Below, piece after piece: positions 20,446 to 21,444 of a stretch of 64,000 nucleotides of DNA (its first letter is position 1; every line of letters begins with the position of its first letter). The notes under the pieces were generated by a model that saw only the letters and a program-made list of their open reading frames with translations, searched no databases and was not told the origin of the DNA. Where the stretch lies: NCBI RefSeq assembly GCF_000022485.1, contig NC_012623.1, forward strand, positions 2,196,501-2,260,500, given 5' to 3'. Source of the stretch: Sulfolobus islandicus Y.N.15.51 (GTDB lineage: Archaea; Thermoproteota; Thermoprotei_A; Sulfolobales; Sulfolobaceae). The position numbers and the translations under genes were made by a program.

Positions 20446-21444
20446 ATGGATAAAACAGTTTTAGACGCGAGTTTAGAACCTTTAAAGGGAAAGACAATAG
20501 CCGTAATTGGTTACGGTAACCAAGGGAGAGTTCAAGCTAATATTATGAGGGAAAATGGTCTGAACGTTATTATAGGAAACGTTAAGGATAGGTATTACGA
20601 TTTGGCTATAAAGGAAGGGTTTGAAGTTTACGATATAGGTGAAGCAGTGAAGAAAGCTGATGTTGCCTTTCTCCTAATTCCAGATGAAATAATGAAGGAA
20701 ATTTATGAAAAGAAGATTGCCCCAATTTTAGAAGGCAAGAAAGAGTTCGTATTGGACTTCGCCAGTGGTTATAATGTGGCCTTTGGACTTATTAGACCAC
20801 CTAAAAACGTTGATACTGTTATGGTTGCTCCCAGAATGGTTGGGGAAGGGATTATGGATTTGCATAAACAAGGGAAAGGTTATCCCGTATTATTGGGAGT
20901 TAAACAAGATGCATCTGGAAAGGCATGGGATTACGCTAAGGCAATAGCCAAGGGTATAGGTGCAATTCCAGGAGGGATTGCAGTTATTTCATCATTTGAG
21001 GAGGAAGCGTTATTAGATTTAATGAGCGAACACACTTGGGTGCCAATATTGTTTGGGGCAATAAAGGCTTGTTTTGACGTTGCTGTAAAGGAATATGGGG
21101 TATCTCCAGAAGCGGCGTTGTTGGAGTTTTATGCCTCTGGGGAATTGGCTGAGATTGCTAGACTAATTGCTGAAGAGGGTATATTTAATCAAATGGTTCA
21201 CCACAGTACTACTAGTCAATACGGTACTTTAACGAGAATGTTCAAATATTATGACTTAGTCAAGGAAATTGTTAAAGATGAGGCAAAGTACATATGGGAT
21301 GGTAGTTTCGCTAAGGAGTGGACATTAGAACAACAAGCTGGATACCCCGTATTTTATAGATTGTGGGAATTGGCTGTACAGAGCGAAATGGCTAAGGCTG
21401 AAAAGGAGTTGTATAAAATTCTAAGAAGAAAGGTAAGCGATTAA
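20446..21444 (+). CDS. ilvC: Divergent ketol-acid reductoisomerase paralogue
   Basis: 332 residues with the KARI fold: NADPH-binding GYGNQG (about residues 22-27), QDASG (154-158), DLMSE (191-195), HHSTTSQYG (252-260). However, several catalytic positions differ from classical IlvC: the His of AHGFN is Ser (FASGYN, S107), the Lys of APKGPG is Arg with altered loop (APRMVGEG, R130), and the second Glu of the ExxxE metal motif is not in place (EFYAS). So it may have a different substrate or a non-catalytic role. A TATA-like box precedes the ATG. Monocistronic, downstream of dead thiC. Confidence 0.85.

Follow-up and report, generated by a model that had tools for sequence, protein, structure and literature searches.

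What does a homologue of ketol-acid reductoisomerase (KARI) do once its classical catalytic residues have changed? This question is raised by a + strand gene at positions 20446–21444 of the 64,000-nucleotide stretch of Sulfolobus islandicus Y.N.15.51 DNA that we analysed (the window). The gene encodes, from an ATG start and without an internal stop, a protein of 332 amino acids (P0001), and our best reading is that it is a misannotated ilvC whose product is a sugar-acid (oxido)reductoisomerase or dehydrogenase.

A KARI homologue with a distinct residue signature

Pfam matched both KARI domains in P0001 (KARI_N, 7.1e-60; KARI_C, 6.6e-32), which bears out the KARI fold signature claimed in the original prediction. 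The protein narrowly passed the TIGR00465 model (231.8 bits against a cut-off of 226.15) and fell below the cut-off of NF004017 (228.9 bits against 336). To define its residues, we used alignments with 18 canonical KARIs, namely the IlvC of the same genome and 17 from the order to which the organism belongs, and with 91 variant proteins, of which 12 came from the order and 79 from the best 80 loci of a wider scan (one was too short). Three segments on the + strand, placed by arithmetic from the ORF start and by the alignment, set P0001 apart from the canonical proteins. At codons 106–107 (Ala-Ser, 20761–20766) a serine replaces the catalytic His107; in PRMVGEGI, codons 129–136 (20830–20853), Arg130 replaces lysine; and in EFYASGE, codons 227–233 (21124–21144, placed also with the help of a structural model), a two-residue insertion shifts the second metal-binding glutamate from i+4 to i+6, giving E227 and E233 in place of the canonical E-x3-E. 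All four acidic metal ligands are nevertheless present, the second pair at i and i+6, and the GYGNQG Rossmann motif, D191, E195 and S254 are kept; further marks of the variant group in P0001 are N25, H253 and S257. The substitutions at 107 and 130 (the latter within APRMVGEG), the displaced glutamate and the retention of the Rossmann motif and Asp191/Glu195 had all been described correctly beforehand. In an AlphaFold2 monomer model (pLDDT 88.5, pTM 0.85), the helix of the second glutamate pair is broken at residue 231, although few parts of the model are less certain than this one (pLDDT of 58–75 in blocks of residues 221–260). A monomer cannot display the metal site that, by analogy with known KARIs, would lie between subunits of the window protein.

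The signature recurs across the variant proteins. Position 130 is arginine in 91 of 91 variants and lysine in 18 of 18 canonical proteins; position 233 is glutamate in all 91, and position 231, a gap in the canonical proteins, is serine or threonine in all 91. Asparagine occupies position 25 in 89 of 91 variants (serine in 17 of 18 canonical proteins) and histidine position 253 in 90 of 91 (valine in 18 of 18). Ser107 is not universal across the clade: this position is serine in 66 variants, histidine in 21, threonine in three and alanine in one, against histidine in all 18 canonical proteins. Because most of the 91 proteins were fetched through the patterns FASGYN or APRM, the counts for positions 107 and 130 carry a selection bias; the insertion, N25 and H253 played no part in fetching them. 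All four acidic ligands are retained in 90 or 91 of the 91. Positions that separate the two groups, with at least 85% agreement on both sides, are N25/S, R130/K, Q249/M, S257/A and E319/G (variant/canonical). P0001 carries N25, R130, Q249, S257 and the insertion, and lies on the variant side of the tree branch described below, the features by which we define the Arg130 clade.

A separate and conserved clade

We searched 147 genomes of the order and found 14 full-length variant genes, in 13 genomes, and 55 canonical ones; the variants are 55–100% identical to P0001 and the canonical proteins at most 47%. A scan of named genomes with a single protein query returned 55 stretches, none of which was confirmed, and a scan with a motif-based alignment query returned 226 stretches containing 159 relatives. 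The best 80 of these 159, which we kept for study, come from Thermoproteota, Nitrososphaeria, haloarchaea, Asgard archaea, Chloroflexi, Acidobacteria, Bacillota, Pseudomonadota and others. We built a tree from 75 proteins, comprising 58 variants (11 from the order, five of six annotated plasmid loci and 42 of the best 80 scan loci) and 17 canonical proteins, of which seven are encoded on plasmids carried by bacteria and by one haloarchaeon; a near-duplicate (L004), a truncated (L012), a degraded (L014) and a shortened (L130) copy were left out. One branch splits variant from canonical proteins with an SH-aLRT of 100, and of 99 when the signature columns are removed.

The window gene is under strong purifying selection and is not degenerate. 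Compared with its orthologue in genome G146, dN is 0.027 and dS 0.52, and compared with a paralogue in genome G136, dN is 0.048 and dS 0.89, a ratio of 0.05 in both cases; the most distant pair is saturated, and the ratio of a 99.7% identical pair (0.26) rests on almost no changes. The substitution of His107 and Lys130 could be taken to indicate a catalytically inactive pseudoenzyme, but we find this hardly credible in view of the dN/dS of about 0.05, the conservation of metal ligands and Rossmann motif across phyla, and the ligand complexes solved for a close paralogue (see below). Of the two fates that the original prediction had offered, neofunctionalised or inactive, the second is thus not supported, given the selection and those complexes, which contain Mg2+, NAD(P)H and the KARI inhibitor CPD, and the first appears likely, if indirectly so, from the co-occurrence and gene context reported in the following sections. 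In one of the 13 variant genomes (G141; L014/L044) the variant is degraded, its frame broken near residue 282 and its motif now YASGK, apparently a recent loss.

Dissociation from the branched-chain pathway

The genome of the window holds two full-length KARI homologues, P0001 and a canonical class I KARI/IlvC (L002), found on checking for additional ilvC genes as had been proposed. L002, which counts Sac-KARI (5yeq) among its closest solved relatives, shares with P0001 the fold, the Rossmann motif, D191/E195, both glutamates and Ser254, but differs in having His107, Lys130 and E-x3-E, and the two are 37–38% identical. It scores well above the cut-offs of both ilvC models (487 and 403 bits) and adjoins AHAS (1134017–1134904 and 1135300–1136988), and DHAD is also encoded in the genome. 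The view that the window gene is a paralogue and not the housekeeping IlvC is therefore supported, given the intact canonical ilvC beside AHAS elsewhere in the genome and the phylogenetic separation of the variant clade.

Of the 55 canonical genes in the 147 genomes searched, 47 have AHAS no more than 4 kb away or DHAD no more than 6 kb away; none of the 14 variants does. Among 99 variant loci (1.48 Mb searched), none had AHAS nearby when queried with a 368-residue part of AHAS; as a positive control, this query recovered AHAS in 11 of the 18 canonical loci, whose flanks were short. Canonical ilvC, AHAS and DHAD accompany the variant in nine of its 13 genomes. In three further genomes, each 99% complete (G037, G046 and G062), the variant is the sole full-length KARI homologue, and a genome search found neither DHAD nor an AHAS above the family cut-off; G062 has one AHAS-like TPP enzyme below it (379 bits against 538). 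In these three the variant has translation genes around it or a transposase gene next to it. Another genome (G116) likewise has the variant alone, with an AHAS-like fragment but no DHAD or AHAS over the cut-off, a case that weighs less because the genome is 70% complete. Organisms without the branched-chain pathway thus carry variant genes, even though the annotated plasmid copies that we inspected are mostly named ilvC.

These data bear on the possibility that the window gene encodes a second, cofactor-flexible true KARI, one that tolerates the altered residues and, in certain conditions, contributes to the supply of branched-chain amino acids. Its narrow pass of TIGR00465 would be consistent with such a role, as would the structures described next. 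Against it stand the missing linkage to AHAS or DHAD, the three variant-only genomes, the canonical ilvC already present in the other nine, and the NF004017 score below its cut-off, and we regard a true KARI as unlikely.

A close paralogue of known structure

The best PDB match of P0001 is 'Putative ketol-acid reductoisomerase 2' of Saccharolobus solfataricus (Sso-KARI), with 17 entries (6jcv, 6jcz, 6jd1, 6jd2 and 13 others), which is about 90% identical to P0001 over 331 residues and shares its Ser107, its Arg130 and its YASGE insertion. The deposited sequence is identical, at 333 of 333 positions, to the variant copy of G136 in locus L034. G136 also holds a canonical ilvC and a second variant (L004) that is 99.7% identical to the window protein; Sso-KARI is therefore a different copy from the one that matches the window gene. 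According to their titles, the entries include complexes with Mg2+ at pH 7.5 and 8.5, with Mg2+, NADPH and CPD, and with Mg2+, NADH and CPD, which indicates that the altered residue set supports binding of metal, cofactor and inhibitor.

Sso-KARI is said to be a dodecamer that is bispecific for its cofactor, loses activity above pH 7.8 and shows no induced fit, and it is reportedly active on acetolactate. If so, absence of the classical residues does not mean absence of KARI chemistry. The deposition of this enzyme as a KARI and its reported activity speak for a true KARI in the window. CPD binding itself says little, because BurG, a family member with another job, also binds CPD (PMC9359912, consulted in part). 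In the parts of PMC8615647 that we consulted, Sso-KARI is handled as an ordinary dodecameric KARI, and those parts contain no discussion of its altered residues. The S. solfataricus KARI structures, which have been used in work on cofactor bispecificity and on the effect of pH, thus stem from the Arg130 clade and not from the ilvC that adjoins AHAS, and part of what looks unusual in them may just reflect a different enzyme.

The thiC neighbourhood in Saccharolobus

In three intact Saccharolobus units, two of them in one genome (G136), thiC lies 42 bp upstream of the variant; ThiC was identified by Pfam in one of the units (L033). Both G136 units (L033 and L034, the latter holding the copy seen in the PDB) consist of thiC and a variant, so that the two genes were apparently duplicated as a pair. 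In the window the variant is intact, while thiC lies in three pieces between 16370 and 20400. Using tblastn, we located on the + strand a 5' remnant of codons 1–53 (16370–16528), a middle remnant (18008–18322) and a 3' remnant of the last 57 or so codons (20230–20400). A clean insertion after codon 53 carries a transposase-like ORF (16819–17979), and about 660 bp of the gene have given way to an element bearing two transposon-like ORFs (18380–20219). A second thiC was not found in the genome, which is 99.99% complete; the strain may therefore depend on a supply of thiamine or HMP.

This arrangement could suggest that the variant, co-expressed with thiC, acts in HMP or thiazole metabolism. The adjacency is confined to Saccharolobus, however; other lineages do without it, four genomes with the variant (G125, G037, G046 and G062) have no ThiC, and the window variant has outlasted its destroyed partner. 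A thiamine-pathway enzyme is therefore very improbable, and we dropped a ThiC partnership as the function because it is not conserved outside Saccharolobus.

On the opposite strand to the variant, genes for a GH116 (661 residues) and a GH12 (334 residues) protein adjoin each other (23216–26266), and the same pair occurs near the variant in two other loci (L033 and L035). These are the only sugar-related genes near the window variant, whose direct neighbour is the thiC debris. At 21938–22744 lies a gene for an archaeal DUF1028 protein with a putative C-terminal peptidoglycan-binding domain, whose counterpart in L033 is split by an insertion.

Sugar-acid genes around distant clade members

Several distant members of the clade lie in sugar-acid gene contexts. 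On plasmids of Halomarina BND7 and Haladaptatus YSMS36, the variant follows an MR/MLE dehydratase gene by 56–60 bp, in a cluster that also holds two further MR/MLE genes, a sugar ABC transporter, SDRs, cupins and either an aldolase or a galactonate dehydratase. In Compostibacillus humi the cluster comprises galactonate dehydratase (542.8 bits, cut-off 311), RpiA, PfkB, the variant, FAH and KGSA dehydrogenase (911.7 bits, cut-off 770). The variant of Sulfitobacter dubius is flanked by a GntR regulator with a TRAP transporter and by an aldehyde dehydrogenase, with a glycerate kinase near, and a Caldilineaceae operon (L073) contains two apiosidase-like genes, PhyH, the variant, a GH5-like gene and AP_endonuc_2. 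Acidilobaceae UBA162 has a solute-binding protein and two ABC permeases directly upstream of the variant, and Wolframiiraptor loci have D-2-hydroxyacid dehydrogenase, Fe-ADH and HpcH aldolase nearby. Around two Haladaptatus plasmid copies most genes are hypothetical, and the neighbours of a copy in Sulfitobacter DSM 110093 are uninformative.

To survey the clade more broadly, we called neighbouring ORFs with a codon-based caller around the best 80 of the 159 scan loci. Among the 115 close same-strand neighbours, the families seen most often were SDRs (8), Apiosidase (6, of which two were traced individually, both to L073), AP_endonuc_2 (5), ABC permeases (4), inositol phosphatases (4), aldehyde dehydrogenases (3) and D-2-hydroxyacid dehydrogenases (3). 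This tally, which covers variant loci alone, shows no dominant partner family, and unrelated neighbours such as SelB, Competence and histidine kinases also occur. Overall, the Arg130 clade is a separate and conserved KARI-like subfamily, probably active and with a role outside branched-chain amino acid synthesis, probably in sugar-acid metabolism. Our literature search, whose scope excluded the primary S. solfataricus KARI papers, recognised no description of the clade as a sugar-acid enzyme.

A proposed activity on sugar-acid-like substrates

We favour, with moderate confidence, the view that the window gene encodes a functional two-Mg2+, NAD(P)-dependent enzyme of the KARI fold whose native substrate is sugar-acid-like and not acetolactate for valine and isoleucine; as part of this joint reading, and with the same measure of confidence, the substrate would be a 2,3-dihydroxy or 2-keto-3-hydroxy acid. 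Retention of the acidic ligands, the Rossmann motif and Ser254 argues that a 2,3-dioxygenated acid still binds by its 'head' to two Mg2+ in the KARI manner, as in BurG, a family member that has taken on another role (PMC9359912). By analogy, D191 and E195 of one subunit and E227 and E233 of its partner would hold two Mg2+, which would clamp the carboxylate and the C2 and C3 oxygens of the substrate, and NAD(P) would exchange a hydride at C2. Arg130 would stand in for Lys130. Several of the changed residues would be placed near the substituents of the substrate, where a more polar wall (H253, S257 and Q258) may suit hydroxylated over methyl groups. The reaction, presumably catabolic, could be that of KARI in reverse (C2 oxidation with a 1,2-shift, making the enzyme an oxidoisomerase) or the redox half alone: the two glutamate pairs and the reported acetolactate activity argue that the shift is kept, and the loss of Lys130 argues that it is not.

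If the isomerisation half has been lost, the enzyme might be a plain 2-ketoacid reductase or 2-hydroxyacid dehydrogenase, with substrates such as hydroxypyruvate, 2-keto-aldonates or ketopantoate and no need for a place in sugar-acid catabolism. Loss of both His107 and Lys130 fits this idea, as do the D-2-hydroxyacid dehydrogenases and SDRs among the variant neighbours; moreover, members of the KARI family can reduce simple ketoacids, as BurG does with a surrogate that it converts to glyceric acid at a kcat of 16.3 per min (PMC9359912, in the part consulted), and KARI has been termed a promiscuous reductase (PMC4353338, likewise in part). The four acidic ligands are seemingly more than a plain dehydrogenase needs, and we consider this alternative rather doubtful, if somewhat less so than a true KARI.

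The preferred sugar-acid reading presumes that the Saccharolobus members share their function with those in sugar-acid operons. Against it, the Saccharolobus members lie behind thiC, outside such operons, and it is possible that clade members differ in substrate among themselves. The surroundings of the gene in the three variant-only genomes, the plasmid copies with uninformative neighbours, the lack of a dominant partner family and the acetolactate conversion reported for Sso-KARI also count against it. Whatever the substrate, the Arg130 clade offers a natural test of how far KARI chemistry tolerates the loss of His107 and Lys130.

Comparison with known systems

A neofunctionalised KARI has a precedent in BurG, the cyclopropanol synthase likened to the window protein here through a PDB fold match. 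Like the window enzyme it coexists with a canonical ilvC elsewhere; it uses two Mg2+, between which CPD sits, and depends on NAD+ (PMC9359912, as far as consulted). It differs in belonging to a natural-product gene cluster and in catalysing another reaction.

The second likeness is to the D-apionate pathway, through the two apiosidase-like genes and the AP_endonuc_2 gene of the Caldilineaceae operon. D-apionate corresponds to the KARI product with a hydroxyl on each methyl group (its bis-hydroxymethyl analogue), and its oxidoisomerisation is, on paper, KARI in reverse; the known D-apionate oxidoisomerase belongs to another family. A more specific proposal, which we put forward as tentative and on balance improbable, is that the clade consists of catabolic oxidoisomerases that act on a sugar acid, branched or linear, by oxidising its C2 and shifting a hydroxymethyl or hydroxyalkyl group, for example from D-apionate to 3-oxo-isoapionate, having arisen independently of the known apionate enzyme. 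Were it true, the S. solfataricus KARI structures would describe that enzyme and not IlvC. An apiose pathway in the window's organism was dropped as a candidate because its genome contains no apiosidase-like gene (PF13204), which is present in two of the 13 variant genomes. For the clade as a whole, given that apionate oxidoisomerisation is an established activity of the D-apiose pathway (EC 1.1.1.421; PMC11747546, consulted in part), the likeness to the KARI product would make apionate an attractive candidate substrate.
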